DNA of 58,688 nt from an uncultured Bacteroidales bacterium (GTDB lineage Bacteria > Bacteroidota > Bacteroidia > Bacteroidales > P3), in assembly GCA_944321735.1 (NCBI GenBank), contig CALUMK010000015.1:1-58688 (forward strand), given 5' to 3'. Shown one piece after another: positions 14,060 through 48,024 of this stretch; within the stretch, counting starts at the first letter, position 1; every line of letters starts with the position of its first letter. A program made the position numbers and the translations under genes. The notes beneath the pieces were generated by a model. That model was not told the origin of the DNA and made no database searches. It was given only the letters and a program-made list of their open reading frames with translations.

Positions 14060-14184
14060 GGAGATGTGTCAGAATGGGCAAAATGCAAGGCGCTGAGAGC
14101 GAGAACGAAGGAGCGTACTTTGGTACGTGACTGAGTTCGAGTCTTGATAGCAACGCAGCAGATTGCCCATTATCACACATCTCC
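14060..14184 (-). repeat. Structured palindromic element, copy A (after asnS)
   Basis: About 125 bp with 22-bp terminal arms: GGAGATGTGT-n3-AATGGGCAA on both ends in inverted form. Read in the asnS direction it begins at the G of the asnS TAG stop. Inside are a middle helix (GAAC with GTTC) and an apical hairpin CGTAC-CAAA-GTACG. Member of the family described in the findings; orientation is given relative to the gene it follows. Confidence 0.85.
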
Positions 14185-15602
14185 TAGAATTCGGCATTCT
14201 GCGGATACCTCGGAAACGGAATCACGTCGCGGATATTGGTCATGCCGGTGATGAACAGCAAAAGGCGTTCGAAGCCGAGCCCGAATCCGCTGTGCGGCGC
14301 GGTGCCGAAACGGCGGGTGTCGAGATACCACCAGTAGGCCTGTTCGGGCATGTTCAGTTCGTGGATGCGGTTCAGCAGCTTGTCCAAGTCTTCCTCGCGC
14401 TGGGAACCGCCGATGATTTCCCCGATTTGCGGGAAAAGCACGTCCATGCCGCGCACCGTCTTGCCATCGGCATTCTGTTTCATGTAGAACGACTTGATTT
14501 CCTTCGGGTAGTCGGTGATGATGACCGGCTTCTTGTAATGGTGTTCCACCAAGAAACGTTCGTGTTCGGACTGCAGGTCCACGCCCCATTCCACCGGGTA
14601 TTCGAACTTGGCGTTCGCCGCTTTGAGCACGTCTACCGCCGTGGTGTAGGTGATGCGTTCAAACGTCATTTTCTGCACATGCTCCAGACGGTCGATCAAG
14701 CTCTTGTCGTACATGTCGTTGAGGAACTTCAAATCGTCCATGCAGTTTTCGAGCGCATAGGAAGTCAGGTGTTTCAGGAAATCTTCGGCAAGATCCATGT
14801 TGTCGTCGATTTCGTAGAAGGCCATTTCCGGTTCGTTCATCCAGAACTCGGCCAAATGGCGGGGCGTATTGGATTTTTCAGCCCGGAAAGTGGGACCGAA
14901 AGTGTAAATCTTGGAAAGAGCCATTGCACCGAGTTCGCCCTCTAATTGGCCAGAAACCGTCAGCTTGGTGGACTTGCCGAAGAAATCCTGGCTGAAATCC
15001 ACGCTGCCGTCCGGGTTCTTGGGCATATTGGCCAGATCCAGCGTCGTCACCTGGAACATTTCGCCGGCACCTTCGCAGTCGGAACCGGTGATGATGGGCG
15101 TATGCAGATAGACGAACCCGCGATCGTGGTAGAACTGGTGCAGGGCGTAGGCCATCGCATGGCGCAGACGCAGCACGCAGCCGAAGGTGTTGGTGCGGGG
15201 ACGCAGATGGGCTATCTCGCGCAGGAACTCCAGCGAATGTCCTTTCTTCTGCAAGGGGTAGGTGTCGGGATTGGCTTCGCCATAGACCACGATATTCCGG
15301 GCTTGGATTTCCACATTCTGTCCTTTGCCCATCGATTGGACGAGGTTACCTTCCACGCAGAGGCAGGCACCTGTCGTGATTCTTTTCATCAATTCGTCGC
15401 CGAAACCGTCCGGTTTTTCTTCCGTTTGCAGTTCGGCTACCACCTGCAGGCTTTGCACGCAGGTTCCGTCGTTGAGCGCGATGAAAGCCACGTGTTTGTT
15501 GCCGCGTTTGGTCCGGACCCAGCCTTTCACGGTGACGGGTCTTGTTTCGCCTTCTTGAAGCGAAAGTTTTACAAGGTCTTTGATTTCAGTGTGTTTCAGC
15601 AT
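14184..15602 (-). CDS. asnS: Asparagine--tRNA ligase
   Basis: 472 residues, full length for a bacterial AsnRS. Class IIb aminoacyl-tRNA synthetase: an N-terminal OB-fold anticodon-binding domain ([18 protein letters not shown]), motif 2 around [18 protein letters not shown], and motif 3 [15 protein letters not shown] near the C-terminus. It charges tRNA-Asn in the cytoplasm. Monocistronic; the stop codon overlaps repeat copy A, and a TAnnTTTG-type box (CAAAGGTA on plus, 15700-15707) lies upstream. Confidence 0.97.
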
Positions 15603-15740
15603 CTTCTTTCCTTTCTTTGTAGATGGTATTGCTGGAGACCCTATAGCGAAAGCCTTGTTTCTGTAGGTTGCACTATGTCGGTCATCGTAGAAACGGTCGC
15701 AAAGGTACGTTTTTTTTTATTGTGTTTAGCCTTGGAAAGG

Positions 15741-15772
15741 CTTGACATTATGCTTTGATTTCGCTACCTTTG
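15741..15772 (+). promoter_or_regulatory. Promoter for the K+/H+ antiporter gene
   Basis: CTTG at 15741-15744, a 20-bp spacer, and TACCTTTG (exact TAnnTTTG) at 15765-15772. A divergent asnS box CAAAGGTA lies at 15700-15707. Confidence 0.5.
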
Positions 15773-15856
15773 CTTTTCTCTGCATTATTGGGACTTTTCG
15801 GTGCAAGCCGGGTCGGGTATTGTGGACATTTTCTAACTCTACATTTTTTTTAGCGC

Positions 15857-17329
15857 ATGGTCATTACAGCCCACAATGTCGTATTGATTATCTCTTTATT
15901 GCTTTTCATCGCCATTTTTGCCGGACAGGCTTCGTACAAGTTCGGCGTTCCCGCCTTGATTATTTTCCTCGGGGTGGGGATGCTGGCCGGTTCGGAAGGC
16001 ATCGGCAAGATTCAGTTCGGATACGAGCACGCCAATATCGCCCAGTTCATCGGGGTTATCGCGCTTAACTTCATTTTGTTTTCCGGTGGATTGGATACCA
16101 AATGGCGGTCGATAAAGCCGGTGTTGGGGAAAGGGATGGTCTTGGCCACATTAGGCGTGGTGCTGACGGCGGTCTTTGTCGGCATAGCGGTCAAACTGAT
16201 AACCGGCATTGGCGGCGGGCCGGGTTTCTCCTGGGCGGAATCTTTGCTGTTGGGCTCGATTGTCTCTTCTACCGATGCGGCGGCCGTGTTCAATATCCTT
16301 AATACCAAGAGCCTTTCGCTTAAATACAACTTGAAGCCCTTGCTGGAGTTCGAGAGCGGGAGTAACGACCCGATGGCGTTCTTGCTGACCACGTTTTTTC
16401 TGAGCATGGTCGATGTCCAAAGCGCGACTCATTCGGTGGGCGGCGCGATTCTGATGCTGTTCGTGCAGATGGCGGTCGGGGTTCTGATGGGTTTTGTGAT
16501 GGGCAAGGTCTCCACCAAGATGATCAACAAGCTGAAAATCGGTTACGAAGGTTTGTATCCGGTTTTGGCTATCGCGCTGATGCTGTTCACGTATTCCTTT
16601 ACGGATTTTCTGCATGGCAACGGCTTCCTGGCGGTTTACATCTGCGGGATTTTTGTCGGGAACCATAAGATTTCGCACCGCCAGACCATCGTCAACAGCT
16701 TTGACGGTTACGCCTGGCTGATGCAGCTGGTGCTGTTCTTGACGCTGGGCCTCTTGGTGTTCCCCAGCCAGGTCTGGGAAGTGAAATGGACCGGTTTGCT
16801 GATATCGGCAGTCATCATTATCTTGGCTCGTCCGCTGGCCATATTCCTCTGTTCGCTTTTCTTCAAGGACCGCTTCAATTTCCGCAACCAGATTTTCGTT
16901 TCTTGGGTAGGTTTGCGCGGGGCGGCAGCCATCGTGTTCGCTACCTATCCCTTGCTGGCAGGTATCCCGAACGCGGACATGATGTTCAGTCTGGTGTTCT
17001 TTATCGCCTTTTCTTCGATGGTGCTTCAAGGCAGCACGATTCCTTGGGTCGCCAAGCGTCTCAAGCTGGCCTACGAGCTTCCTCCTGCCTTGCTTTCGCG
17101 CAAGGATTTGGATACCAAGACCGAATTGATTGAGATCATGGTTCGCAAAGGTTCTTCGTTGGATAACCAGACCTTGCTCGAAGCCCAGCTGCCCGATGAC
17201 ACCCGCGTGACGATGATCATGCGCAAGGGCGAGTACATCGTTCCCAGCGGCAACACCCGTCTGCAAGCCAAGGATCATCTGTATGTGATTTGCAAGAATC
17301 CGGACGAGGTTCGTCGCTTGGTTTCGTAG
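15857..17329 (+). CDS. Potassium/proton antiporter, CPA1 family with RCK-C domain
   Basis: 490 residues. About twelve hydrophobic helices span residues 1-395, with the CPA motif region SSTDAAAVF and ESGSNDPMAF (the ion-binding Asp). The C-terminus (about 405-490) is a TrkA-C/RCK-C domain: LPDDTRVTMIMRKGEYIVP and DHLYVICKNPDE, which in relatives senses nucleotides or ions. This architecture matches CvrA/NhaP2-like inner-membrane K+(Na+)/H+ antiporters that adjust cytoplasmic K+ and pH. Ion choice cannot be told from sequence. Monocistronic with its own promoter. Confidence 0.88.
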   Translation: MVITAHNVVLIISLLLFIAIFAGQASYKFGVPALIIFLGVGMLAGSEGIGKIQFGYEHANIAQFIGVIALNFILFSGGLDTKWRSIKPVLGKGMVLATLGVVLTAVFVGIAVKLITGIGGGPGFSWAESLLLGSIVSSTDAAAVFNILNTKSLSLKYNLKPLLEFESGSNDPMAFLLTTFFLSMVDVQSATHSVGGAILMLFVQMAVGVLMGFVMGKVSTKMINKLKIGYEGLYPVLAIALMLFTYSFTDFLHGNGFLAVYICGIFVGNHKISHRQTIVNSFDGYAWLMQLVLFLTLGLLVFPSQVWEVKWTGLLISAVIIILARPLAIFLCSLFFKDRFNFRNQIFVSWVGLRGAAAIVFATYPLLAGIPNADMMFSLVFFIAFSSMVLQGSTIPWVAKRLKLAYELPPALLSRKDLDTKTELIEIMVRKGSSLDNQTLLEAQLPDDTRVTMIMRKGEYIVPSGNTRLQAKDHLYVICKNPDEVRRLVS

Positions 17330-17354
17330 CCTTTGGATTGTCGTCAGTTGACCC

Positions 17355-18002
17355 TTATTGTTTTTCTAGGAATGAAATCAAGGCTTCGACGGCTTTGCCT
17401 CGATGGCTGATGGCGTTTTTCTCGTCCAGGCTCAGTTCTGCAAAGCTTTTGTCGAATCCGTCCGGTTGAAAAATCGGGTCGTAGCCAAAGCCTTGTCCGC
17501 CTTGGCGTTCGGGCAGGATGGTTCCGTTCACACTGCCTTCAAAATAGTATGCTTCTTCGTTTAAGATCAGGCAAATGACACTGCGGAAACGGGCTTGTCG
17601 CGGTTTGTTCTGTAATTTGAACAGCAGACGATCTATGTTCTGGTCGAAAGTGGGGTCGGGCATCTGCAAGGATTCCTCGCTTACAAAGCCGTTTTCTTCA
17701 AAACAATCGGGCATATTGGCGTAGCGGGCAGAGAATACGCCGGGGCGGTTTCCGATGGAGGGTACTTCCAATCCTGTGTCGTCTGCAAAACAGTCCACAT
17801 TGAATTTCTGGTGGATGTATTGCGCCTTTTGGAGAGCGTTCCCTTCCAAGGTGTCGGCTGTTTCGGGAATTTCCTCATGGAAGTCCAGCGCGTCCAAGCC
17901 TTCGATACGGAAATGCTCGCTAAGGATGGGGTGGTTTTGGAAGATATTCTGGATTTCTTCTTTCTTGTGCCGGTTATGCGTGGCTAAATACAAGGTCTTC
18001 AT
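17355..18002 (-). CDS. rdgB: Non-canonical purine NTP diphosphatase (RdgB/HAM1)
   Basis: 215 residues from the ATG at 18002; the frame extends 12 codons upstream but the family N-terminus MKTLYLATHNRHKKEE begins here. Motifs: ATHN, FADDTGLEV, GFGYDPIF and KNAISHRGKA. It hydrolyses (d)ITP, dHAPTP and XTP to monophosphates plus pyrophosphate, keeping deaminated purines out of DNA and RNA. Convergent with the antiporter gene (25 bp gap). Confidence 0.95.
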   Translation of the reverse strand: MKTLYLATHNRHKKEEIQNIFQNHPILSEHFRIEGLDALDFHEEIPETADTLEGNALQKAQYIHQKFNVDCFADDTGLEVPSIGNRPGVFSARYANMPDCFEENGFVSEESLQMPDPTFDQNIDRLLFKLQNKPRQARFRSVICLILNEEAYYFEGSVNGTILPERQGGQGFGYDPIFQPDGFDKSFAELSLDEKNAISHRGKAVEALISFLEKQ

Positions 18003-18149
18003 GATAACTTTTTTAGGCGATGCAAAAGTAAGAAACACTTTTGAAAGAAAATCCCTACTTTTGCGTGGCTTTAACTCTCCGTTTCTGCGGAATGCTCGGC
18101 TTCTGGCATTTGAAGGATGTCGGACAAGGTGTTATCCGGTATTTATGAA

Positions 18150-19413
18150 ATGAAAACGACGTTACCCTTATTTTTCAGCAAGTCCATGCTTGCGGTAAGC
18201 CTGGTATGTGGGGCAGTATGGCTTGCTGTGCAACCCTTCCGGCTGCGCGCTACAGTCTTTGAACCGGCGACACGGCATCTTTGCTCTCTTTCAAGATAGA
18301 ACAGGCTTATCTCCGTTTTTCTTCGGGCAATTATGTGGAGGCATTCGATTCCTTGATTCTCATCGAGAAGAAAATATCCGACCATGTGCGGGTTCCATCC
18401 TTGCTGGCTACGGATGCAGTCTATAAGCCCTTTGCCGTGGACAGCAAGGATGATTCCCTTTGGGTCGGGATGCATGTGACGGCAGGCATATCTTTGGCCG
18501 AACTGGAAATTTATTTGAGCGAATTTACCGAGGCCACGGATATTGTGAACCGGATTATGACCTTGTACGTGCAGGATACTACCGGGATTATTTCGGTTCG
18601 TTGCTTGAATGCCTTGGGGGCCATTTGTGCCCACCGGGGAATGTTCGATATGGCCGAGAAGTACTTCCTTCATGCGCTTGAATTAGGGAAGCCTTTGATG
18701 GACACGGGCAGTCTGGCATCGTTTTATGAGAACCTGGCTGCGATTTATGCCGTGAAAGGGGACGGGAATGCCACCTTGCGATACTCATTGGAAAGTTGCA
18801 AGATTCTGGAAGGGGCGGGTTTGTATGGTGAACATTATATTTATGCCTTAAATTCCAAGCGATGGAACGTACCGAGCGGCAGGTGGCCTTGCTGAACAGC
18901 GAATTGAAATACAAGGATGCGTTGGTGAAGGGAAGCATCGCTTTGGGAAGCCTGTTGGTATTGCTTGTGGTGATTTTGTATTGGGGAGGCGTTATCCAAT
19001 ATCGTCAAAACCAAATGTTCCGTCTCCGGTTGGACGAGACAGCCGGGATTCACCAAGATAGGATGAAGGACATGCGCGAGGATATGGACAAGGAGGTGAA
19101 CTTGCGCGATAAGGTGGTGGAGATGGAGCGTTTGCTGGAGGATTTTTCCGGCGACAAGGATTTGAATGAGTTCGAGCTTTATTTCAAGAGAATGGGGGCG
19201 GAGTTTTGGGAAAAGCTGGATTCACGTTTCCCCGGGCTTCAGCCGCATGATAAACGCTTGTGCGCTTTTATATATCTCCGGCTTGGAACCAAGGAGATAG
19301 CGGCAATTACGCATCGGGCTGTGCGTTCTGTCTATACGGCTAAGAATCGGTTGAAAAAGAAGATGGGGTTAGCGCAGGATGCCGATTTGCAGGATTTCCT
19401 GCATTCGTTGTGA
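18150..19413 (+). pseudogene. TPR-transmembrane-HTH regulator, broken by frameshifts
   Basis: Three frames together resemble the Bacteroidota regulators with a signal segment, TPR repeats, one transmembrane helix and a C-terminal HTH. Part 1 (18150-18299) is MKTTLPLFFSKSMLAVSLV. Part 2 (18281-18895) has TPR units such as ALGAICAHRGMFDMAEKYFLHAL. Part 3 (18862-19413) has TERQVALLNSELK, a membrane helix (LGSLLVLLVVILYW), a coiled coil and an HTH (TKEIAAITHRAVRSVYTAKN). There is a shift near 18280 and another near 18870, where about two TPR units also appear to be missing after YALNSK. A functional protein is unlikely. Confidence 0.75.
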
Positions 19414-19447
19414 TTGACTGAGCCCTACAAGGGATGGGTTTTACCGA

Positions 19448-19480
19448 AGAGCCCCTGCCAGGATTTCTGACAGGGGCTCT
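19448..19480 (+). terminator. Hairpin after the TPR-HTH pseudogene
   Basis: AGAGCCCCTG at 19448-19457 pairs with CAGGGGCTCT at 19471-19480. There is no clear T run, so the termination role is tentative. Confidence 0.5.
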
Positions 19481-19571
19481 GGTTGTATCGGGAGTTTGCG
19501 TTTTTTTTCAGGAGGTTCTTGTACCGCCTTGTTTCATGTGCGGGCGAGAAAGCTCCGCTTCTTTGCGGTCA

Positions 19572-22400: not shown

Positions 22401-22433
22401 GTTTTATTTGTTTTGGGTTGCGAAGATAATGTT

Positions 22434-28775: not shown

Positions 28776-30113
28776 ATGAATGCGTTACAGAGAAAAATGT
28801 CCTTGCTGGCTGCTTCGGTCGTGCTGTTGGGAAGCTCGTATGCCCAGGTTCTGCCGGATCCGGAAGCGGAATGCCTGCCGCCTTATTGCTTAGGGATAGG
28901 TGCGGTTGATGAAGCAGTTGCTGCGGATACCGCTGCCGCCTTATTGGCGGTGGTGGAGGATTTGAATATTGAAAAATGGGAGGATGCAGTTGTCAACGAG
29001 GAACAACTGTATTTTGGATTGGATTACGAAGATGTGATTCGCAACAGTCTTTTTGGCTCTCGTTGGGGCGTGAATCCGGAAGAGCCTTTTAGCGAGGTGA
29101 AGAATATGCTGAGCCTGGATAATATCCGCAATCCGGAGCTGTTGCGCAGGCGGCGGACCGAGCCGGCCACGCAGATCCAGACCTTGGTGCGTAACCTGCG
29201 CGTAGTGGACGGGAAAAAGGAAAAGCCGAAGAAGCAGCGCAAGCCGCTTATCAACCCCAAGGATTCGGTTTCCCGCTGGGCCTTCGATTTTACCGGCGGC
29301 ATCAATCTGGCTCAGACCTCGTTGACCAATTGGTCGGCAGGGGGCGAGAGCTCGATTTCCGGGAACGGTCTTCTGGACATGAAGCTGGCCTACCGTCAGG
29401 GCGGTCATAAATGGGAAACCCGTTTGAATACCGAGTATGGTTTGGTTTATACCCGATCGGACGGTTTGAACAAGACTGTCGATAATTTCCTGATTTCGTC
29501 CCAGTACGGTTACGCGATTCCGGGAGGGCGTTTTTTCTATACAGCCATGGTGGATTTCCAGACGCAGTATGATCGAGGCTATTCCGAAGCCGGTGACAAA
29601 AAGGCAGGGAAAGACTATATTTCAAATTTCTTGTCCCCCGGTTATTTGAATGCATCTGTCGGTATGGAATACAAGTTAGGCGGGTTGTTTTCGGCCTATT
29701 TCTCTCCGGCAAGCAGCCGTACCACTTTTGTAGAAGACCAGTTCCTTGCCAATCAAGGGTTGTTCGGGGTCGATTCCGGGCAGAATGTCAAGTTCGAAGT
29801 CGGTATGAGCTTGAAGACCGCTTTGTCTTGGACTTTCTGGAAAAACATGACCCTGAAGACCGATGCCACCTTCTTTACTCCCTACAGTTCTGATTTCGGG
29901 AATATCGTTGTGGATTGGAACGTGCAGATTGAAATGCAGGTGAACTCCGTGTTCAAGGCTATGATTGGGACATCGCTCAAATACGACGACAATGTGGACT
30001 GGGTGGATGCCGAAGGCGTGAACCGCGGGCCGAAAGTCCAGTTCCGGGAGATGATTACCGTGGGGATTGGGTATACGTTTGGGTATAAGTCTAAGCGGAT
30101 GGCCGCCGAATAA
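28776..30113 (+). CDS. DUF3078 outer-membrane protein
   Basis: 445 residues with a signal peptide ending near GSSYAQ. The C-terminal two thirds is a run of amphipathic beta strands with aromatic girdles (FDFTGGINLAQTSLTNWSAG, LNTEYGLVYTRSDG), matching the DUF3078 family, predicted beta-barrels of the outer membrane. The hallmark N-W-x-x-G-G-E (NWSAGGES) is present. Residues about 135-165 form a basic linker. The specific role is unknown. The TAA stop overlaps repeat copy D. Confidence 0.85.
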   Translation: MNALQRKMSLLAASVVLLGSSYAQVLPDPEAECLPPYCLGIGAVDEAVAADTAAALLAVVEDLNIEKWEDAVVNEEQLYFGLDYEDVIRNSLFGSRWGVNPEEPFSEVKNMLSLDNIRNPELLRRRRTEPATQIQTLVRNLRVVDGKKEKPKKQRKPLINPKDSVSRWAFDFTGGINLAQTSLTNWSAGGESSISGNGLLDMKLAYRQGGHKWETRLNTEYGLVYTRSDGLNKTVDNFLISSQYGYAIPGGRFFYTAMVDFQTQYDRGYSEAGDKKAGKDYISNFLSPGYLNASVGMEYKLGGLFSAYFSPASSRTTFVEDQFLANQGLFGVDSGQNVKFEVGMSLKTALSWTFWKNMTLKTDATFFTPYSSDFGNIVVDWNVQIEMQVNSVFKAMIGTSLKYDDNVDWVDAEGVNRGPKVQFREMITVGIGYTFGYKSKRMAAE

Positions 30114-30240
30114 TTTTCATGTGAAAAGGGGCAATCTACGTCGTTGCGAGCCTTGGCCAAGTCGGTCACATACTTCAGTATGCTCCCTCCTTGGCTTTCT
30201 CCTCGACGCCTCGCATCTTGCCCCTTTTGCCATGAAAATT
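30112..30240 (+). repeat. Structured palindromic element, copy D (after DUF3078 gene)
   Basis: 129 bp with 23-bp terminal arms (AATTTTCATG-n2-AAAAGGGGCAA against its inverse, two mismatches). It begins inside the TAA stop of the DUF3078 gene. Inner helix GGCCAAG/CTTGGC and apical hairpin CATAC-TTCA-GTATG. Confidence 0.85.
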
Positions 30241-30306
30241 TGAGCTATGTGGCTGTCACTTCTGACCCGCCAACCGGAGGCGAGGTAGCTAGCCAATTTT
30301 GCGAGT

Positions 30307-31176
30307 TCATTCATTTTCTCCAGTTTCCGATATCATCTGTTGTTTGTCCTCCGAATTATTATCCAGCAGATAATCACTTGCTTTTGCGGGAGATATTACC
30401 GAATGACCTATTTGCGATTCAAGACTTTGGCGGGCTTGTCGGGCAATGTTGCCGCCTCGGCGTGCTATGTCGGCGTTCTCGAAAAAACCTTTGGGATTTT
30501 CTGAACGGGAGATTTCTGTTGTGGACACTTCCGCCAATGTATTGAGCGCCAGTTCTACGTTTGTCATGTTGTCACGCAGGCTCTCTTTCTTCAGCCCTTT
30601 GTGAGCCTTGTATTGTTTGGTGCGATAACCGCTCCATTGCTGCAGGATGATATCGGTCAGTGATGCGAAGTCGCGGCTTCCCTCGATTCCCCCGCGTTTC
30701 CATTCATCGGTAAGTTCCTTGCGCACCTCGATGCTACGGATACGTTGGTTTATCCAACGTTCACTGTACCCCAGACGGCGGTAGTCGGTCATGGCTTGCT
30801 CAATACTCAATTCCGGATCTTGCATTTGGTTGACGCGCTCAGCTGCCACAGCAGCCATCCATCGCTTGAAAGGTTCGGCTTTGGGTGATGGTATCGATTG
30901 GATGATGCGAAAAATACCTTGTGCAGTGGCAACCGTGGTTCGATAGCGTTTCCCGTCAGCGGCAATAAGTTGAGTTAGGGTACAAAGTGTACCCCAACTG
31001 GCATCAAGCTCAGGATCGCGTTTGCGCATTTTCTTGATATACTGTTTGGGATCTGCACTATCGGTGAGTATTTCTACTACGTCTGTTACCGAAAAATACC
31101 ATTCTTCACTTTCGCTATCCCATACGGAGCGAACTTTCTTTTCCTCGAATAGTTTTATGTCTTGTTTTTTTTTCAT
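30307..31176 (-). CDS. BRO-family (phage antirepressor-like) protein
   Basis: 289 residues. Residues about 10-110 are a BRO-N domain: VRSVWDSESEEWYFSVTDVV and DPKQYIKKMRKRDPE, with TAQGIFRIIQSIPSPKAEPF. The remainder is helical and includes YRRLGYSERWINQRI and an Arg-rich segment; its ending contains IGHSVISPAKASDYLL, similar to the DinD family. BRO-N domains bind DNA in phage antirepressors; cellular copies are often mobile. It is flanked by one full and one partial palindromic element, which fits insertion into a gene-poor slot. No phage neighbours are seen. Confidence 0.75.
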   Translation of the reverse strand: MKKKQDIKLFEEKKVRSVWDSESEEWYFSVTDVVEILTDSADPKQYIKKMRKRDPELDASWGTLCTLTQLIAADGKRYRTTVATAQGIFRIIQSIPSPKAEPFKRWMAAVAAERVNQMQDPELSIEQAMTDYRRLGYSERWINQRIRSIEVRKELTDEWKRGGIEGSRDFASLTDIILQQWSGYRTKQYKAHKGLKKESLRDNMTNVELALNTLAEVSTTEISRSENPKGFFENADIARRGGNIARQARQSLESQIGHSVISPAKASDYLLDNNSEDKQQMISETGENE

Positions 31177-31280
31177 ATATCCTCTAATTCTCCTATTCTG
31201 GCATCGGTATCAATTGCGAACGCACGCGTTCGCAATTGGATATTTTGTCATGCTTCACCTAAAACATGCAAGAAAAAAAA

Positions 31281-31345
31281 TCACAACTCATACTTCGGTA
31301 TGCTCCCTCCTTGTCCTTCGGCTCGAGGCCTCGTATCTTGCCCCT
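31281..31345 (+). repeat. Partial palindromic element (copy E)
   Basis: Matches the right half of the family: CATACTTCGGTATG hairpin, CTCCCTCCTTG, GGCCTCGTATCTTGCCCC. The left arm is missing and no stop codon precedes it, so it is a relic. Possibly produced together with the BRO gene insertion. Confidence 0.7.
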
Positions 31346-31354
31346 TTTTCGGCT

Positions 31355-36000: not shown

Positions 36001-36046
36001 TTTTTTCAGAAATAGATTTCGGAACAGTGGAAGATATGTGAGGGTT

Positions 36047-38092: not shown

Positions 38093-38184
38093 TTTTTGTT
38101 TTTTTTCTGGTTTTTCGGGCAAGTTTTTTTGCGATGCCGACCGGGGCAGGCGGTTTTACCGGGCTTTATGCGCCTCATCGACAC

Positions 38185-38703: not shown

Positions 38704-38760
38704 GGCTCGCAATGGAAACTTTTCTTTTTGCAATGATATTGATTTTTGGTGAAATGGCAA

Positions 38761-38951: not shown

Positions 38952-39002
38952 GGTTTTCTAGGTTTTATGAGTGGTGAAAACGGCACTCGTTTTTAGTTTA
39001 TA

Positions 39003-40321: not shown

Positions 40322-40325
40322 GTTG

Positions 40326-40529
40326 TCAATCTTTTAATTGGGTGGTGAGTTGAAGGCCGAGCACATGGCAGATGGAGAGCAGGGTTTCAATTTGCGGATT
40401 GCCTGTCCCGCGCTCCACGGCCACAATGGTATTGATGCTTACATCGGCCAAATCGGCTACTTCCTGCTGGGTGACTTTCAGTGCCTGCCTTCGCGCTTTT
40501 ATCTGTGCCCCTAAATCTTTTGTATTCAC
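40326..40529 (-). CDS. HipB-like XRE-family regulator
   Basis: 67 residues, started by GTG at 40527-40529 (no ATG available in frame). A Cro/CI-type HTH: LGAQIKARRQALKVTQQEV, ADVSINTIVAVERG and IETLLSICHVLGL. It is the DNA-binding antitoxin or autorepressor of the three-gene operon and should bind the inverted repeats just upstream. Confidence 0.85.
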   Translation of the reverse strand: MNTKDLGAQIKARRQALKVTQQEVADLADVSINTIVAVERGTGNPQIETLLSICHVLGLQLTTQLKD

Positions 40530-40666
40530 AATATATTGGTGTTTTCTGCAAAAATAGAAATTTGGAGTTGTGTTGGCAAATAAAAATCATATTATATTGT
40601 GAATTCTGCCTTGTTTGCAGGAAATGAAAAGTGTTTGTGAAATAAAATCACATTCTGTTGTGATTT
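40525..40666. promoter_or_regulatory. Operator-like inverted repeats around the hipBST promoter
   Basis: TTCACAATATA (40525-40535, over the GTG start) is repeated in inverse at 40593-40603 as TATATTGTGAA, so the pair brackets the promoter. Further upstream, AAATCACA (40645-40652) pairs with TGTGATTT (40659-40666). All share TCACA/TGTGA half-sites, a plausible HipB binding pattern. Confidence 0.5.
40549..40580 (-). promoter_or_regulatory. Promoter of the hipBST-like operon
   Basis: On the minus strand TTTG (40577-40580), 20-bp spacer, TATTTTTG (40549-40556): full match to the Bacteroidota consensus. Start of transcription would fall near 40541, so the leader is only about 12 bases. Confidence 0.6.
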
Positions 40667-40714
40667 TTGATGCCTTATACAGGGCTGTCCTCCTCGTGTC
40701 TCTGCATGAAAAAC

Positions 40715-40748
40715 AACGCCGGGACGGTCGATAAACCGCCCCGGCGTT
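40715..40748 (-). terminator. Terminator after the second EF-G gene
   Basis: AACGCCGGG pairs with CCCGGCGTT, with GGT/ACC inside; on the minus strand it is followed by GTTTTTC. About 125 bases after the stop codon. Confidence 0.75.
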
Positions 40749-40874
40749 TGAGAAAGCGTCATCTGGAATTTGATGTATACGCAACTATTTGCGAAATGCT
40801 CAAATAAAGTGTTCCAAGAACAGGCATCACTTGAGCGTGGCGCACATCTCCCGGAATCAAGCCAATCCGTGTAG

Positions 40875-43028
40875 CTAATCCTCGTCCTCGTCCTTATATT
40901 CCTTGAGCAGTTTTTCCTGGACATCGCCCGGAACCAGCTCGTAGCTGCTGAACTGCATCGTGAACGAAGCCCGGCCGCCGGTGATGGAGCTTAGCGCCGT
41001 AGCAAAATTCGACATCTCCTTCAGAGGCACCTTGGCCAGGATCTTTTCATAGCCTTTTTCACTATTCATGCCGCTGATGATAGCCCTGCGTCCCTGGAGG
41101 TCGCCCATCACATCGCCCAGGTAATCCTGAGGCACATCCACTTCCACATCGTAAACCGGTTCCAGAATCTTCGGGTCGGCTTCGCGGAAAGCCGTGCTGA
41201 ACGCATGGCGGCCCGCAATCATGAACGAGATTTCATTGCTGTCCACTGGGTGCATCTTGCCATCATAGACAATGACCCGTACATCGCGGGCATACGAACC
41301 CGTCAGAGGTCCTTGTTCCATGCGCGAGAGAATCCCTTTGAGGATAGCCGGCAAGAAGCGGGCATCGATAGCTCCGCCCACGATGCTGTTGACGAATACC
41401 AATTTTCCTCCCCATTCCAGATTGATAGTCTGGGTGTCGCGCACATTCACCTTGAATTCCTGGCCCTTGAAACGGTACGAACTCGGCGCCGGCATCCCTT
41501 CGTAATACGGCTCTACAATCAGATGCACCTCGCCGAACTGCCCGGCACCGCCCGACTGCTTCTTGTGACGGTAATCGGCTCGTGCCGCCTTGGTGATGGT
41601 TTCCCGGTAAGGAATCTTGGGTTCATAGAACTGCACCGGAATCTTGTCGTTGTTCTCGATACGCCATTTGAGCGTGCGCAGGTGGAATTCCCCTTGGCCG
41701 GAAATAATCGTCTGCTTGAGTTCCTTCGATTGCTCGATGATCCAAGTCGGGTCCTCTTCGTGCATACGGAACAATACTTCCATCATCTTTTCCGCATCCG
41801 CTTCGTTGACAGGCTTGATTGCCTGACGGTATTTCGGTTCAGGGTATCTGATAAAATCGAACTTGTAATCACAGTCCTTGCTGTTGAGCGTGTTGCCCCG
41901 ATGCACGTCCTTCATCTTCACCGTGGCCCCGATGTCGCCCGCTTTCAATTCGCTCACTTCTTCCCGGTTCTGTCCGGCAATCGTGAAGAGCTGCGCCATC
42001 CTTTCCTTTGAACCACGATCGGCGTTGATCAAGTCGTCTCCCGCATGGACCGTACCCGAAATCACCTTGAAATAAGCCACCTGGCCGATATGCGGCTCAA
42101 TGCTGGTCTTAAAGACGAACAAGCTGGTAGGGCCGTTGGAATCGGGTGTCACTTCCACGCCGTCTACCGTGACCGGACGCGGCATCTTGTCCGTGCAGGG
42201 CACCACGTTGCCCAGGAATTCCATCGTGCGGCGTACGCACATGTCGCGGCCCGCGCAGACGCAGAATACCGGGAACATGCCCCTTGTCACCAAACCGGCG
42301 CGGATACCGGCACGCATGTCGTCCTCGCTCAGCGAACCTTCATCAAAGAACTTCTCCATCAGGGCATCGTCATGCTCGGCAGCCGCTTCCACCAAAGCCT
42401 TGTGCAGTTCCATCGCCTTATCCCTTTCCGAATCGGGAATCGGCAATACCTCGGGCACCCCGCCTTCCGGTTTCCATTGGTACATCTTCATTTTCAGCAC
42501 GTCCACTACCGCGTTGAACGAAGGACCCACCATGACCGGGTACTGGATTTGCACAATCCGGTTTCCCCATTGTTCGCGCAGCTGATGCACAGTTCCGTCG
42601 TAATCCGCTTTTTCATGATCCAACTGGTTGACAATGAAGATGACCGGCTTGTGGAATTTTTCCGTGTAACGGAACTGGTTCAGCGTGCCCACTTCCACTC
42701 CGTACTGGGCATTGAGCACCATCAAAGCGGTGTCGGTCACGTTCATGGCCGAAACGCTGGCGCCGATAAAATCGTCCGAACCGGGGCAGTCTATGAAATT
42801 GAGCTTGCGATCCTGCCATGGCACGCTGAAAACCGTAGAGAAAACCGAATAACCGTATTCTTTTTCAACAGGGAAATAGTCGCTTACCGTATTCTTGTTT
42901 TCCACGCTGCCCCGGCGTTTGATGATTCCGCCTTCATAAAGAAAAGCTTCGGCGAGCGTGGTTTTTCCTGATCCCGAACTGCCTACGATGGCAATGTTTT
43001 TGATTTCGTCTGTTTGATAAACCTTCAT
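40875..43028 (-). CDS. Elongation factor G-like GTPase (second EF-G)
   Basis: 717 residues. G1 GSSGSGKTTL, G3 DCPGSDDF (DxxG), G4 NQLD (standard NKxD with K to Q), then EF-G domains II-V, with the domain IV loop GGAGQFGEVHLIVEP and domain V ending GRASFTMQFSSYELVP. The divergent GTPase motifs set it apart from the main FusA and place it in the second EF-G group of Bacteroidota. In B. thetaiotaomicron such an EF-G2 supports translation without GTP hydrolysis under carbon stress; whether this protein is the orthologue cannot be settled here. It lies 22 bp after aroK, in one operon with sodB. Confidence 0.85.
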   Translation of the reverse strand: MKVYQTDEIKNIAIVGSSGSGKTTLAEAFLYEGGIIKRRGSVENKNTVSDYFPVEKEYGYSVFSTVFSVPWQDRKLNFIDCPGSDDFIGASVSAMNVTDTALMVLNAQYGVEVGTLNQFRYTEKFHKPVIFIVNQLDHEKADYDGTVHQLREQWGNRIVQIQYPVMVGPSFNAVVDVLKMKMYQWKPEGGVPEVLPIPDSERDKAMELHKALVEAAAEHDDALMEKFFDEGSLSEDDMRAGIRAGLVTRGMFPVFCVCAGRDMCVRRTMEFLGNVVPCTDKMPRPVTVDGVEVTPDSNGPTSLFVFKTSIEPHIGQVAYFKVISGTVHAGDDLINADRGSKERMAQLFTIAGQNREEVSELKAGDIGATVKMKDVHRGNTLNSKDCDYKFDFIRYPEPKYRQAIKPVNEADAEKMMEVLFRMHEEDPTWIIEQSKELKQTIISGQGEFHLRTLKWRIENNDKIPVQFYEPKIPYRETITKAARADYRHKKQSGGAGQFGEVHLIVEPYYEGMPAPSSYRFKGQEFKVNVRDTQTINLEWGGKLVFVNSIVGGAIDARFLPAILKGILSRMEQGPLTGSYARDVRVIVYDGKMHPVDSNEISFMIAGRHAFSTAFREADPKILEPVYDVEVDVPQDYLGDVMGDLQGRRAIISGMNSEKGYEKILAKVPLKEMSNFATALSSITGGRASFTMQFSSYELVPGDVQEKLLKEYKDEDED

Positions 43029-43050
43029 GGCATCTGAATTTTAGTTATTT

Positions 43051-43671
43051 TTAAGTTATTTCGTGAATGTCGCGTTTCATGGCTTTCCGCGCCCACCGCA
43101 AGAAAGACGCAAAGTCCTCTTCTTCCGGTCGGAAACGGCGTTCGGCCTGCTTGTAAAAATATTCTCTTTCCTTTAGTTTGTTTTTGACAAAAAATGAAAT
43201 TTCTTCCGTCTTCATGCCGTTGAGAAGCGGACGTTCTGCGCGGTTTTCAGGAAGCAGAAGCCGTTGGATAAGAATCTCTTCCGGTACATCAATGTAAACT
43301 GTGATTCCATCCTGGCACATGTACTCCATGTTCTCTTCCCTGCATGGCAGCCCGCCTCCGGTCACCACCACGCAAGCTTCGTCGGGAAGGCTTCGAATCA
43401 GGCGGCTTTCCGCTTCCCGGAACCATGTTTCACCCCGCCGGGCGAAAATTTCCGGGACGGACATCCCCGTTTGCTGCGCGATGCATAGGTCCGTATCGTA
43501 AAGAGGGCAATCCAGCAGAGCGGAAAGCCGCCTTCCCAGCTGGCTTTTTCCTGAAGCCATGAAGCCGACCAAGTAAAGCTTCCGCCCGTTGTCGTTGCTC
43601 TGCCCGGCTTTTTGAACCTTTGTTGCGCGCTTGGGGTCAAGATTCGTTTCCCGCTCCGTCCCGGACACCAT
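43051..43671 (-). CDS. aroK: Shikimate kinase
   Basis: 206 residues, with about 28 extra residues before the usual start. Walker A GFMASGKSQLG, Asp in YDTDLCIAQQTG, FREAESRLI and the GGG loop VVTGGGLPC; lid region RPLLNGM. It phosphorylates shikimate in the chorismate pathway. It follows sodB by 3 bp and precedes the EF-G gene, so it sits in a mixed operon. Confidence 0.92.
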   Translation of the reverse strand: MVSGTERETNLDPKRATKVQKAGQSNDNGRKLYLVGFMASGKSQLGRRLSALLDCPLYDTDLCIAQQTGMSVPEIFARRGETWFREAESRLIRSLPDEACVVVTGGGLPCREENMEYMCQDGITVYIDVPEEILIQRLLLPENRAERPLLNGMKTEEISFFVKNKLKEREYFYKQAERRFRPEEEDFASFLRWARKAMKRDIHEIT

Positions 43672-43674
43672 CGG

Positions 43675-44256
43675 CTAATCTTCCATGTAGCGGTCGCACA
43701 CGCCCGGCCAGTCAACTAATTTCCAGAAATCGGCAATGTAATCCGGACGGCGGTTCTGCTTGTCTAAATAATAGGCGTGTTCCCAGACATCGATGACCAA
43801 TAACGGCTCTTTCCCGTCCCGGATCGGGTTTCCGGCATTCGGCGTGGCGATGATTTCCAATCCGTCCTCACCTTCGGCCAGCCATACCCAGCCTGAGCCG
43901 AACAAGCCCGCTGCTGCCGCCGAGAAAGCTTTCTTGAAGTCCTCGAACGAACCCCATTTCCCGCAAATCGCTTCTAAGAGTTCTCCCGTTGGTTCGCCGC
44001 CCCCTTGCGGGCTGAGGCAGTTCCAATAGAAAGTATGGTTCCAGACCTGGGCCGCATTGTTGTACAGTCCGCCTTCGGCCTTTTCGATGATTTCTTCCAA
44101 ACCGGCATCGGCAAACGGCGTGCCTTCCTTGAGTTTGTTCAGATTGTCCACATACGCCTTGTGGTGCTTGCCGTAATGGAAAGAAAGCGTCTGAGCCGAA
44201 ATCATCGGTTCCAAGGCGTTTTCCGCATACGGCAGGGGAGGTAATTGAAAAGTCAT
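43675..44256 (-). CDS. sodB: Superoxide dismutase, Fe/Mn type
   Basis: 193 residues from the ATG at 44256; the open frame runs 81 codons upstream but the family begins at MTFQLPPLPYAENALEP. Metal ligands: His in LSFHYGKHHKAYV, His in NHTFYWNCLSP, and Asp/His in VIDVWEHAYYLD. GSGWVWLA is also typical. It protects an anaerobe from oxygen exposure. Fe is the likely metal, as in other Bacteroidales (cambialistic use is possible). First gene of sodB-aroK-EF-G. Confidence 0.95.
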   Translation of the reverse strand: MTFQLPPLPYAENALEPMISAQTLSFHYGKHHKAYVDNLNKLKEGTPFADAGLEEIIEKAEGGLYNNAAQVWNHTFYWNCLSPQGGGEPTGELLEAICGKWGSFEDFKKAFSAAAAGLFGSGWVWLAEGEDGLEIIATPNAGNPIRDGKEPLLVIDVWEHAYYLDKQNRRPDYIADFWKLVDWPGVCDRYMED

Positions 44257-44479
44257 ATCTGTAAAAGTTTTTGTTGTTTTCTTTCGGTCACGTTCCGTAA
44301 AGTTACAAATAAAAACGTCCGATTTGACGGTTCGTCCATTTTTTTTATGAATTTTTTGATGAGAGAGATTGGGAAGAGGCTTCAAAAGTTCGTTTTGGCG
44401 GATGAAAGTTGTCATGACTATGTTTTTCATTGGGTGTGGCCGGGTGTGTCGAGACCGCCCTTTCCGCGCAATAATGAAA

Positions 44480-44505
44480 AAGGCGGCACTTTGCAGCACC
44501 GCCTT
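44480..44505 (-). terminator. Terminator after kamA
   Basis: AAGGCGG at 44480-44486 pairs with CCGCCTT at 44499-44505; on the minus strand the stem ends in CCTTTTTC. It separates kamA from sodB. Confidence 0.7.
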
Positions 44506-44535
44506 CTATGGACAAGTTTGAATGATTCCGAATCT

Positions 44536-46368
44536 TTAATTTTCCGGGTTGACTGTCACCGGTTTGCTTTCATTGTGTTCCGGCAAGCCCGTTGAAACCG
44601 AATCCGCTACCGCGTTCTTTTTTTTGCGGTGAGGGAGCGCAGCCAAGACACCGGGAGGAATTATCTTCTTTTTGCGTCCCCGGCGTTTGGGTTCACTGCT
44701 TTCGATTTTTTTCTTTTTGGAGGGTTTGCGTCCGCGTCGTTTCGGTGCGGCGACTACTTCCATTTTCACGTCCGGTGTATTTTCGGATACGGATTTGCGT
44801 TTCCGGTATTTCAGGCTGTCTGTGGATATTGTGACATGCTGGATGGAAACGGGCGTTGTTTTGGCTTTCGGTTTGCGTCCCCGGCGTTTCGGGTCTGCTG
44901 TTTGAACTTCAACTGTAGCCGCCTTGGCTTTGCGCCCTCTGCGTTTGGGTTCGGTTACGCTTTCCTCCGTTTTTGCCGCTGTTGCCTTCGGCTTGCGTCC
45001 CCGGCGTTTTGGCTCGGTGGCAACCGCAGCGATGGCGGCCGCTTCTTCCATGCCGGCTTCTTCTATGGATTTTTTCCGACCACGGCCTTTCTTGGGGGCA
45101 GGCGCCGCCTGTTCCTTATGCCATTTTTCCGCTTTCTTGTAGCGTTCCAGCCCCATGGGTTCCAAAGAAATGGCCTGATGCGGCAAGCTCAGCAACTGGC
45201 TTACCCCTTCTGTCTTGAGGTTCTTGCGGTCGATGGCCAACGAGGCGCTGTTATCGTAATCGGTAGGTTCAGTATAAGTGGTGATTACCCCTTCAAAGTT
45301 CCGCAGGATAGCCTTTCCGCCACCCAAGGAAATCAGGTATTGCGGCATCACAGGAATCTTTCCGCCGCCACCGGGAGCGTCCACCACGAAAGTAGGAACG
45401 GCAAAACCCGAGACATGGCCGCGCAAGCCCTCGATAATCTCGATACCCTTGCTGACCGGCGTGCGGAAATGCTCCAGACCCATCGAAAGGTCGCACTGAT
45501 AAATATAATACGGACGGACCCGGATTTTCACCAAGCCGCATACCAAAGCCTTCATCGTGCTCACCGAGTCGTTGACCCCGCGGAGCAGCACGCTCTGGTT
45601 GCCCAAGGGGATACCCGCATTGGCCAGACGGGCGCAAGCCGCCGCGCTTTCCTCGGTGATTTCGTTAGGATGGTTGAAGTGCGTGTTGAGCCAGATCGGA
45701 TGGTATTTCTTGAGCATGTTGACTAATTCCGGCGTGATACGCTGTGGGCAAACCACCGGCACGCGGCTTCCGATACGGATCACTTCCACATGCTTGATAG
45801 CACGCAGACGCTTGATGATGTATTCCAGTTTGGCGTCCGATACCAACAGGGCATCGCCCCCTGAAAGCAATACGTCCCGCACTTGCGGTGTCTTTTCAAT
45901 GTATTCGATAGCCTTTTCGATCCGATCCTTGGGACTGGCGCAGTCATGTTGGCCGGCAAAACGGCGACGAGTGCAATGACGGCAGTACATGGAGCATTGG
46001 TCGGTAATCAGCATCAGCACGCGATCCGGATAACGGTGCGTCAGGCCCGGAGTGGGCGAGTCCACATCCTCGTGCAGGGGATCCAGCAAATCGGCATCCG
46101 ACACATGGGTCTCGGCTGCCGTGGGAATCGCCTGCTTGCGGACAGGGTCGTTGGGATCCTTGGGGTCGATCAAGCTCAAGTAATAGGGCGTGATAGCCAT
46201 ACGCAAGGTCTCCAAGGTCTTTTTGATGCCTGCTTCTTCGTTCTTAGTCAGTTTTATGTACTTTTTGAGGTCTTCCAGCGTTTCGATGCGATTCTTGACC
46301 TGCCACTTCCAATCGTTCCACTGAGCGTCGGTAACTTTCGGAAACAACTCTTTTCTTCTGCTTTTCAT
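44536..46368 (-). CDS. kamA: Lysine 2,3-aminomutase with an AT-hook-like C-terminal tail
   Basis: 610 residues; a normal KamA has about 416. Residues 1-416 keep every key position of the Clostridium subterminale enzyme at the same number: radical SAM cysteines C125, C129 and C132, substrate-binding D293 and D330, and PLP lysine K337. It converts L-lysine to L-beta-lysine using SAM and PLP, the first step of lysine fermentation. Residues 420-610 form a Lys/Arg/Pro-rich, probably disordered tail with PKRRGRK at 453, 474, 493, 542 and 560 and a GRGRKK at 428. These resemble AT-hooks (core RGR-P/K). The reading frame continues without a break and codon use looks alike, so this is not an assembly join. 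Role of the tail unknown. Confidence 0.93.
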   Translation of the reverse strand: MKSRRKELFPKVTDAQWNDWKWQVKNRIETLEDLKKYIKLTKNEEAGIKKTLETLRMAITPYYLSLIDPKDPNDPVRKQAIPTAAETHVSDADLLDPLHEDVDSPTPGLTHRYPDRVLMLITDQCSMYCRHCTRRRFAGQHDCASPKDRIEKAIEYIEKTPQVRDVLLSGGDALLVSDAKLEYIIKRLRAIKHVEVIRIGSRVPVVCPQRITPELVNMLKKYHPIWLNTHFNHPNEITEESAAACARLANAGIPLGNQSVLLRGVNDSVSTMKALVCGLVKIRVRPYYIYQCDLSMGLEHFRTPVSKGIEIIEGLRGHVSGFAVPTFVVDAPGGGGKIPVMPQYLISLGGGKAILRNFEGVITTYTEPTDYDNSASLAIDRKNLKTEGVSQLLSLPHQAISLEPMGLERYKKAEKWHKEQAAPAPKKGRGRKKSIEEAGMEEAAAIAAVATEPKRRGRKPKATAAKTEESVTEPKRRGRKAKAATVEVQTADPKRRGRKPKAKTTPVSIQHVTISTDSLKYRKRKSVSENTPDVKMEVVAAPKRRGRKPSKKKKIESSEPKRRGRKKKIIPPGVLAALPHRKKKNAVADSVSTGLPEHNESKPVTVNPEN

Positions 46369-46452
46369 TTTACACTAGTCTATGTCCGGAGAATATGAAA
46401 GAAGTAAATGTGCCAAATTGCAATTAAATCGAGCAATTTCAGACATTCTTTT

Positions 46453-46576
46453 AGGCGTTTCAGAACGGGTGAGACGCGAGGCGCGAGCCGTAGGCCGGGG
46501 AGGGAGCGTACTTTTAGGTACGTGACCGACCCGGCCAAGGCTCGCAACAAAGCGGATGGCCCGTTATCAAACGCCT
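46453..46576 (-). repeat. Structured palindromic element, copy B (after kdd)
   Basis: 124 bp; arms AGGCGTTT-n3-AACGGG on both sides in inverse. It begins inside the TAG stop of kdd. Middle helix GCCGGG/CCCGGC, flanking helix CGAGCC/GGCTCG, apical hairpin CGTAC-CTAAAA-GTACG. Confidence 0.85.
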
Positions 46577-47618
46577 ATGCGTAGAGTTCAGTAAAAATAT
46601 CCCTCAAAGCCTTGCACTCCCGCAGCTCCTGCAACGTGATTTCAGCATGGCCCTTGGTATAGCCGTTGCCCACGATCATCGTCACATCCTTGCCCACGCC
46701 TTCAGCGCCCAAAGCAGCTTTGGTGAAGGAAGTAGCCATCGAGAAGAAGTAAACCAGACCGTCGTCCTTGGTGCAGAGGATGCTGGTCATTTCCGTGTTT
46801 TCAATGTTCACATTGTTGATGCAGATGTCGCAAAGCTCGCCCTTGGTCAGTTCCATGATTTTTTCGTAAACCGGAACCGGCTGGGTCGCATCGGCGGAGA
46901 ACACATAGTCGCAGAAGCCGAGCTTTTGCAGACGTTCGGTGCTCTTCTGGCTGTGGCACAGACCGATTACCTTGCCCGTGACCCCGGCGCGTTTCTTGGC
47001 TTCGTAGCAGCAGAGCATACCGCTCTTTCCGCCCGCACCGATAATCAGCACGGTATCGCCCGGTTTCACCAATTTGGCCGTCTGGGCAGGCGCACCGGCC
47101 ACATCCAAAGCCGACAAAGCCAGGTTTTCCGGAAGGTCGGAAGGAATCTTGGCATAGATGCCGCTTTCAAACAGGATCGCCTTGCCGTCGATGTCCACTT
47201 GGTCGATATCGGCGCGGATATCCTTGATCTTGTCAATCCGCAGCGGAGTCAGCGAAAGCGAAACCAGCGTGGCAATCTTGTCGCCTTCCTTCAAGTCGAT
47301 CTTATCCTTCAGCGCGTCGCCGATTTTTTCAACCGTACCCAGGAGCATACCGCCCGAGCCCGTCACCGGATTGCGGTGCTTGCCCTGCTTGGCCACGATA
47401 TCCAGCATGATTTCAGCGATTTTAGCCTTGTCGCCGCCAGCCTGCTGTTCAATTTGCGTAAAGCTGGCCGAGTCGATATTCAAGGTCTGCACGTCAATCA
47501 GGATTTCATTGTCGTACAGGACATCCATGTTGTTGTCCAGTTTGTCAGCGGGCTGAGGAAGCACGCCTTTGGGAGAAATTACACGGTGTGTACCGTATTT
47601 GTTGCCTTTAGGTTGCAT
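46575..47618 (-). CDS. kdd: L-erythro-3,5-diaminohexanoate dehydrogenase
   Basis: 347 residues. N-terminal domain typical of the Kdd family (KYGTHRVISPKGVLPQPA), then a Rossmann fold with VLIIGAGGKSGMLCCYEA and later CHSQKSTERLQKLGF. It oxidises 3,5-diaminohexanoate to 3-keto-5-aminohexanoate with NAD+ and releases ammonia. Lies upstream of kamA in the same direction, with repeat copy B between. Family known from Fusobacterium, Porphyromonas and Cloacimonas. Confidence 0.92.
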   Translation of the reverse strand: MQPKGNKYGTHRVISPKGVLPQPADKLDNNMDVLYDNEILIDVQTLNIDSASFTQIEQQAGGDKAKIAEIMLDIVAKQGKHRNPVTGSGGMLLGTVEKIGDALKDKIDLKEGDKIATLVSLSLTPLRIDKIKDIRADIDQVDIDGKAILFESGIYAKIPSDLPENLALSALDVAGAPAQTAKLVKPGDTVLIIGAGGKSGMLCCYEAKKRAGVTGKVIGLCHSQKSTERLQKLGFCDYVFSADATQPVPVYEKIMELTKGELCDICINNVNIENTEMTSILCTKDDGLVYFFSMATSFTKAALGAEGVGKDVTMIVGNGYTKGHAEITLQELRECKALRDIFTELYA

Positions 47619-47837
47619 TGTTTTATTTTGGTTTAATTGTTATTAAAAATTAAATTTTATTTTTTGCCGAACCCATCGGGAGAAGCGCGCCGCAGTTCCT
47701 CATCGGGATCTTCACGACCCCTTGTCCGAACCCCGTCCGCTCCATCGAGCCGCTCTTGCATCCCTCCTCGAAAAACCGATGCTTTCACATTTGTCTTTCG
47801 GACCCTCGGTTCGTCCCTTTTCAGGTTCGGTTTATCG

Positions 47838-47866
47838 GCGTGTCAGAATGGGCAAGCTGCAAGGCC
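47838..47866. repeat. Fragment of the palindromic element (copy F)
   Basis: GTGTCAGAATGGGCAAGCTGCAAGG in pieces: GTGTCAGAATGGGCAA and GCAAGGC match the outer end of copy A. The rest of the element is absent. It lies 30 bp from the full copy C. Confidence 0.55.
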
Positions 47867-47897
47867 GCTATTTGGGTTCGATGTTTGGTTTTATTGT

Positions 47898-48024
47898 GTT
47901 GATGCGATAGAATGGGTGAGATACGAGGCGTCGAACCGCCGACCAGGGAGGGAGTGTACTTGTGTACATGACCGACCTGGTCAAGGTTCGCAACGAAGTG
48001 GATTGCCCATTCTATCGCATCAAC
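47898..48024 (-). repeat. Structured palindromic element, copy C (after kce)
   Basis: 127 bp; perfect 19-bp arms GTTGATGCGATAGAATGGG. It abuts the TAA stop of kce. Middle helix GACCAGG/CCTGGTC, flanking helix GAACC/GGTTC, apical hairpin TGTAC-ACAA-GTACA. It lies in the 406-bp gap between kce and kdd; nothing coding was found in the remainder (47619-47897). Confidence 0.85.

Follow-up and report, generated by a model that had tools for sequence, protein, structure and literature searches.

Within the analysed window, the whole 58,688-nt contig CALUMK010000015.1 of an uncultured Bacteroidales bacterium, a structured palindromic element occurs in four full copies (A to D) between positions 14060 and 48024. 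A sequence-only reading of the window had proposed two roles for it, either a 3′ untranslated region (3′-UTR) RNA element or a DNA element resembling repetitive extragenic palindromes (REPs) or miniature inverted-repeat transposable elements (MITEs). Of these, the MITE/REP-like reading is preferred, supported by 105 copies in the genome, by MITEs elsewhere whose cores match the same model, and by the separate inheritance of arms and core. We consider it probable that the element is a non-autonomous DNA hairpin of the MITE type, mobile either in the past or to this day, which in this genus became fixed at stop codons.

The 105 copies were found in the 2.7 Mb genome with a covariance model built from 32 copies (E ≤ 0.001), with which 150 of 984 first-look candidates were scored. 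BLAST searches of the same genome returned 43 places with copy A as query and 43 with copy B. The conserved part is a core of approximately 90–105 nt, in which the boxes RATCTRCTTCGTTGC and GCCTYGYATCT surround a variable inner helix and the apex is nearly constant (GTCACGTAC-n4-GTACGCTCC); the side of the ATCTRCTTCGTTGC box is defined here as the left. In the own genus, the core is flanked by arms that form inverted repeats, yet share no more than a partial consensus between sites. Two kinds of arm were seen repeatedly. Class 1 arms resemble GGCGTGTGATAAYGGGC/GCCCRTTCTGACACGCC, and class 2 arms contain an A-run, CG and ATTT, paired to a T-run; the two were split by a rough motif rule that misfiles a few copies. 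Allowing at most one mismatch, the class 1 arm motif gave 88 matches, compared to 5 for a control pattern. From reading the alignment, internal mismatches also appear conserved, with TC facing TC on the gene strand and GA facing GA on the other. The gene-strand folds of the four window copies reached −52.1, −64.5, −64.5, and −53.3 kcal/mol (z of −7.2 to −9.5), and none of 200 shuffles per copy was as stable as the real sequence. Tandem arrays of the element with near-identical cores were seen in the own genome at C1:304867-305239 and C2:173301-173573.

An indication of mobility comes from two genomes of other genera. In genome G359, which consists of one contig of 2,186,370 bp, the core lies within elements of 174–176 bp that end in the terminal inverted repeat (TIR) GAGACTGTTGCA, and 16 of 20 elements are bordered by identical 5-bp flanks, compared to 0.8 when the flanks were shuffled. 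In genome G107, the elements mostly measure 167–189 bp (128 to 226 bp overall), carry the TIR TAGTGTCAGCAAGAA, and were checked for the core in part; here, identical 6-bp flanks, nearly all TANNTA, were found on 16 of 20 elements versus 3.0 with shuffled flanks. Constant TIRs and target duplications, as expected of MITEs, are thus present in G359 and G107. The own genome shows short, non-coding and dispersed copies in large number (105 copies, 105-nt core), and the own genus has neither a constant TIR nor a duplication.

The sequence-only reading had suggested a covariance-model search of the genome and of related Bacteroidales. At least one match was obtained in 11 of 13 genomes of the genus (0–104 per genome, 1–104 in the matching ones). 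None was found in any of six genomes from other genera of the same family, and four of 12 genomes from other families of the order contained 1 to 4 copies each. In a wider sample of the order, the core was detected in 72 of 393 Bacteroidales genomes, representing 52 of 207 genera, and in a sample of the phylum in 29 of 395 genomes at E ≤ 1e-5, the own genome being included in both. At most 10 candidates per genome were scored in these two scans, so that copy numbers there are lower bounds. Among the 28 phylum matches beyond the own genome, 27 fell into a single family outside the order (f136, genera g266 and g271); these were weaker (E down to 3.4e-9), but their repeated occurrence raises the possibility that the core predates the order or has moved between lineages. 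With regard to known families, the sequence-only reading had recognised none, and Rfam 15 agreed, with no match at gathering thresholds in the whole window and none at E ≤ 1 in positions 46400–48100, which contain copies B and C.

In the own genome, the placement of the element at stop codons is strict and its orientation to the gene nearly uniform. Based on genes called by a codon-usage caller trained on the open reading frames (ORFs) of the window, 81 of the 105 copies had a same-strand stop codon at −9 to +24 nt relative to the core, and in 61 it was 8–15 nt away. The distance was negative, with the stop codon within the core edge, in 8 of these 81 stop-adjacent copies, and the outer stem typically starts in or right at the stop codon. 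The left gene lay on the same strand in 93 copies and on the opposite strand in 11, with none called in one, whereas the right gene was on the same strand in 53, on the opposite strand in 47, and missing in five; only 2 of the 47 convergent right genes end within 24 nt of the element. The stop codons beside elements (46 TAA, 21 TAG, 14 TGA) showed no clear shift in raw counts from those of other genes (77, 37, and 42, respectively). In a relative (G010), one copy (L196) lies approximately 100 nt past its gene and antisense to it.

The copies in the window follow this pattern, as listed below together with two partial copies and the host genes.

14060..14184, minus strand: copy A, core 14069-14171, class 1 arms, left arm overlapping the TAG stop of the host gene
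14184..15602, minus strand: host gene of A, class II (D, K, N) aminoacyl-tRNA synthetase (PF00152, PF01336), earlier named asnS
28776..30113, plus strand: host gene of D, DUF3078 protein (PF11276)
30112..30240, plus strand: copy D, core 30126-30230, arms AATTTTCATG/CATGAAAATT beginning inside the TAA stop of the DUF3078 gene
31283..31349, plus strand: right-half copy comprising the apical hairpin and the 3′ half, past the Bro-N ORF
46453..46576, minus strand: copy B, core 46460-46565, arms AGGCGTTT/AAACGCCT, left arm taking in the AG of the TAG stop
46575..47618, minus strand: host gene of B, zinc-dehydrogenase-like (PF00107), earlier named kdd
about 47840..47866, minus strand: orphan 3′ half of a further copy with a class 1 arm, downstream of copy C
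47898..48024, minus strand: copy C, core 47907-48011, mismatch-free 19-bp outer stem beginning directly after the TAA stop
48025..48855, minus strand: host gene of C, beta-keto acid cleavage enzyme, BKACE (PF05853), earlier named kce

All four copies and the helices named for them in the sequence-only reading were recovered, and its observation that they sit at the stop codons of unrelated genes holds, as each outer arm begins inside or directly after the host stop codon. At the orthologous sites, copy A is identical in genome G011, and copy B is near-identical in loci L094 and L095, with a core-deleted remnant in L097. Copy C was not found at the corresponding gene end in the relatives' loci L095, L096, and L097, and in L094 (which belongs to G011) the left half of C is fused to the orphan 3′ half seen at 47840..47866. 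At site D, G011 has the left half of D fused to the second right half, with no Bro-N gene between them. In the window, this Bro-N (phage antirepressor-type) ORF occupies 30307-31176 on the minus strand, between copy D and the right-half copy (30241-31282), and the joined halves in G011 suggest that it was gained or lost along with recombination of the element. At the contig start, positions 1-624 hold two long direct repeats (199 nt at 99% and 115 nt at 93%), approximately 340 nt apart.

A comparison of copies within the genome indicated that arms and cores are inherited separately. Two of the 105 copies lacked flanking sequence and were dropped from the arm, modularity, and strand tests, leaving 103. 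Among the 96 pairs with an inner hairpin identity of at least 0.88, the arm identities were 0.59/0.61, compared to 0.56/0.55 for all 5253 pairs; conversely, the 16 pairs with both arms at 0.85 or above had a mean inner identity of 0.74. The copies C9:9923 and C12:63180, for example, share 95% of the inner hairpin, although the former has class 1 and the latter class 2 arms. A minority of pairs share arms and core alike, for example C1:226706 and C2:183009. Arms and core are thus unlinked across copies, and whole helices change at once, which by itself yields covariation between copies.

The same was observed in a comparison of orthologues. Searching six relatives with the final 100 nt of 24 host genes produced 101 matches, and the downstream regions were read; site classes were assigned by reading alignments, and a rough parser left 3 of 24 sites and the inverted copy unparsed. 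Of the 23 sites compared with G011, 10 had the same element, interrupted by a contig end in one case, and an eleventh had it with a foreign insertion. The arms were retained around a different core at C9:42562 and C1:400059, and were similar around a different core at C11:24281; at C12:71264, the arms and most of the core were retained and helix positions were changed on both sides. A different element was found at the stop at C34:11848, C17:15018, C12:63180, C31:18653, and C32:11386, where at least one strain has a 3′ remnant of the other's element downstream. The remaining sites comprise the joined halves at D, C1:411565 with differing arms and core, and the truncated C1:210839. In G001, the same arms enclose another core at C16:38113, where the site is cut by a contig end, and at C1:300066 the core is inverted within the same arms (model match on the minus strand of L227, gene on plus). 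The swapped cores at orthologous sites still pair. In the more distant relatives G004, G007, G009, and G010, these gene ends often have no element, another hairpin, or the next gene soon after; no unambiguous empty orthologous site was found, and the element-free relatives are too diverged to show one.

Halves of the element accumulate downstream of full copies. Flanks were long enough in 79 of the 81 stop-adjacent copies. Within 400 nt downstream, 20 of these had a sense-oriented right half (17 of them without a sense left half), compared to none in shuffled flanks; sense left halves occurred in 5, antisense right halves in 4, and antisense left halves in 7. At four sites (those on C34, C17, and C31, and C12:63180), the order is regular, with a full element a and a half b in one strain and a full element b followed by halves a and b in the other. 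Candidates for the origin of these stacks are unequal recombination between the tandem right halves of strain alleles or regeneration from the distal half. Inversion of the whole element was considered as a source and rejected, since the orphan halves at the four sites keep their sense orientation. Two further repeats were seen. One, with ends like ACCCAAATCGGTCATTAGAC / GTCTAATGACCGATTTGGG, lies at or beside the same stop codons in L232, L216, and L226 of G001 and in the right flank of the own copy C2:41162, and is probably another MITE of the genus. The other (GGCTGCACCTCGGCATAGCTCAA... or parts of it) is nested in the left half or apex of the element in the own copies C32:4114 and C14:4942, in L224 and L238 of G001, and in L229 of G011.

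The sequence-only reading had claimed strong covariation from four copies, and this was borne out with 32. In their alignment, 94.2% of the cells pair and 122 base-pair cells are altered on both sides, versus 34.2 (standard deviation 7.3) in 500 shuffles, none of which reached 122; structures slid by 1–3 columns at the 3′ partners gave 4–22. Such a pattern would be expected if the element acts in the mRNA as a terminator or 3′-end stabiliser under selection on the RNA, and the same-strand gene ending next to most copies, the strong RNA folds, and some element-free relatives with another hairpin close past the stop (read by eye) agree with this. However, other element-free relatives enter the next gene almost directly (C2:22775 in G009), and the core also resides in MITEs independent of stop codons. 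The strand antisense to the gene was the more stable one in 95 of the 103 own copies; over all 103, the mean difference was 9.0 kcal/mol, compared to 2.2 kcal/mol in shuffled controls. The same strand was favoured in each of 20 copies from other genera, by 13.2 kcal/mol. In 95 of the 103 copies that could be aligned, isolated mismatches on the gene strand were G.T in 17 cases and A.C in 37, a weak test given that the copies are related and not independent. Both results argue against mRNA as the molecule under selection, and would suit either an antisense transcript or a folded strand of DNA; simple selection on a 3′-UTR RNA was set aside on these two tests. Moreover, as whole helices change at once between copies and orthologues, covariation does not have to reflect selection on RNA. 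If imperfect palindromes were corrected at the DNA level, the same covariation pattern would result.

With regard to termination, a T-run of at least four at the stem base was present in 17 of 40 class 2 but just 2 of 40 class 1 copies, and thus in 19 of the 80 stop-adjacent copies tested (80 of 81), leaving 61 without. All in all, the 3′-UTR RNA role is weak as the origin of the conserved structure and is rather unlikely as the overall explanation. In class 2, 17 of the 40 copies have both an A-run and a T-run; a terminator-like side role is plausible for this arm class, which probably also acts as a terminator.

Taken together, we propose that the unit is the conserved core, which in G359 and G107 rides in short transposons with TIRs and target duplications, presumably moved in trans by transposases of host insertion sequences (IS). 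In the own genus, it sits between largely site-specific inverted arms that start at the stop codon of the upstream gene, in nearly one orientation. Judging from the comparison of draft genomes, the core can be exchanged, inverted or deleted as the arms stay, and leftover 3′ halves pile up downstream. Insertion at stop codons may be tolerated because the protein is left intact and a 3′-end hairpin is supplied. The covariation would then stem from pairing kept for the folded DNA strand antisense to the gene, together with helices swapped or corrected together, and stepwise selection on mRNA structure would not be its main cause. A more far-reaching version of this proposal, which we regard as doubtful, is a docking system at gene ends. 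The palindromic arms at stops would be fixed sockets, a putative recombinase reading the antisense folded strand would swap, flip, or remove the core, and the ordered, possibly re-usable stacks of 3′ halves would record past occupants. Many unrelated genes would in this way have their 3′ ends reshuffled between sister strains.

Several observations weigh against a MITE-type origin. In the own genome, the direct repeats at the stem ends of 96 copies gave no target-site duplication above chance (4 bp, 4 versus 3.0 shuffled; 5 bp, 2 versus 0.9; 6 bp, 2 versus 0.3). No autonomous partner was found in a search that covered Y1 but not DDE transposases, and no autonomous copy was recognised among 23 loci of G359 and 30 of G107; in G107, two pairs of ends are separated by 1.1 and 1.4 kb, one end having three mismatches. 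The shared ancestry of own-genus copies and MITE cores is suggested by the covariance model, and the gene-sense strand is no less stable than the antisense one in 8 of the 103 own copies. Mobility alone does not explain the placement at stops either. In G359 and G107, the elements are intergenic. Those of G359 have a same-strand left gene and an opposite-strand right gene in 16 of 21 each, at scattered distances, and in G107 the stop codon of the left gene lies inside the duplicated target in only 4 of 14 elements. A TANNTA target could favour TAA and TAG stops, which may be how the placement in the own genus began. Finally, the genus genomes are drafts of 20–240 contigs, those with titles being mostly metagenome-assembled genomes, and palindromes are hazardous to assemble, which bears on the swaps and the inversion.

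This last point leads to the alternative that the copies are real and old, and that the swaps, the inversion, and the stacked halves are errors of short-read drafts. Repeats of 100 bp are prone to misassembly as well, and several own copies lie near contig ends. However, the ordered halves recur at four sites in two assemblies, the swapped cores retain pairing, and the MITE copies of G359 come from a single contig. We regard an assembly artefact as unlikely.

Less probable still is that the arms are pre-existing terminator hairpins, into whose loops a hairpin-homing core was inserted, with the flanking ATCT as the duplicated loop. Joined by a single ATCT, the arms would be predicted to form a tetraloop hairpin, the largely site-specific arms are unlinked to the core, and two of the 13 genus genomes contain short-looped mini hairpins (five in G009 and a longer one in G001). 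These mini hairpins are equally explained as deletions between short repeats, and since the arms-only hairpins of G009 are indistinguishable from deletions, core insertion into native terminator loops was rejected. Furthermore, ATCT on both sides also belongs to the conserved mismatch motif, the relatives show no clear empty site, and the class 1 arms are not native terminators, as their consensus is common to many unrelated genes.

A REPIN/RAYT origin, in which REP-type palindromes are mobilised by a REP-associated tyrosine (Y1) transposase, is highly improbable and was rejected for the genus, since Y1_Tnp (PF01797) was absent from all 13 genus genomes in a search that found it in 12 of 18 other genomes, and the units measure 100–130 nt instead of 20–40. 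A likeness does exist: PMC3733652 describes REPs as imperfect hairpins of high copy number downstream of genes, and the REP/REPIN palindromes (GTAG/CGTC) are, like the element, extragenic, palindromic, abundant, and mainly downstream of genes. The element differs from them in its several-fold longer units, its variable site-specific arms, its near-single orientation to the gene, and a genus without Y1 transposase.

Other known systems resemble the element in part. The sites of integrons termed attC have a conserved fold, freely varying helix sequence, and a preferred strand, and the resemblance of the element to them is an analogy in just these features. ERIC sequences, which are the same as RU-1, are palindromic, and are not known to show strict stop-codon placement or core/arm modularity. 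RU-1 repeats of enterobacteria, given as 127 bp in PMC2759123, are similar in length, intergenic, and MITE-like. Closest to the MITEs of G359 are those of Porphyromonas gingivalis. According to excerpts of PMC4596501, GAGACTGTTGCA is the left TIR of ISPg4 (IS5 family) and of MITEPgRS/MITE464, and the MITEs of this species (MITEPgRS/MITE464, BrickBuilt) are likewise short, non-coding, and multi-copy. They carry internal tandem repeats of 41 nt or 23 nt, and the excerpts do not mention a hairpin core (PMC4596501). In a literature search for words of the sequence, PMC4596501 and PMC11053733, both on this species, contained GAGACTGTTGCA and no word of the core, and the other papers listed matched a single word each, apparently by chance or through primers. 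Own-genus copies differ from the P. gingivalis MITEs in their largely site-specific arms and in having no TIR of that type. No recognisable description of the core was found in the open-access papers covered, which excludes subscription literature and ISfinder.

On the favoured reading, the element belongs with the MITE-type mobile hairpins but leads an unusual existence at stop codons. As such, it would show how a hairpin of transposon origin becomes tied to stop codons genome-wide, and it serves as a warning that covariation in repeated palindromes can arise by helix exchange at the DNA level instead of selection on RNA. With the core present in a quarter of the sampled Bacteroidales genera (52 of 207), the element would be a tractable case for asking which enzyme moves structured cores and what effect this has on the 3′ ends of genes.

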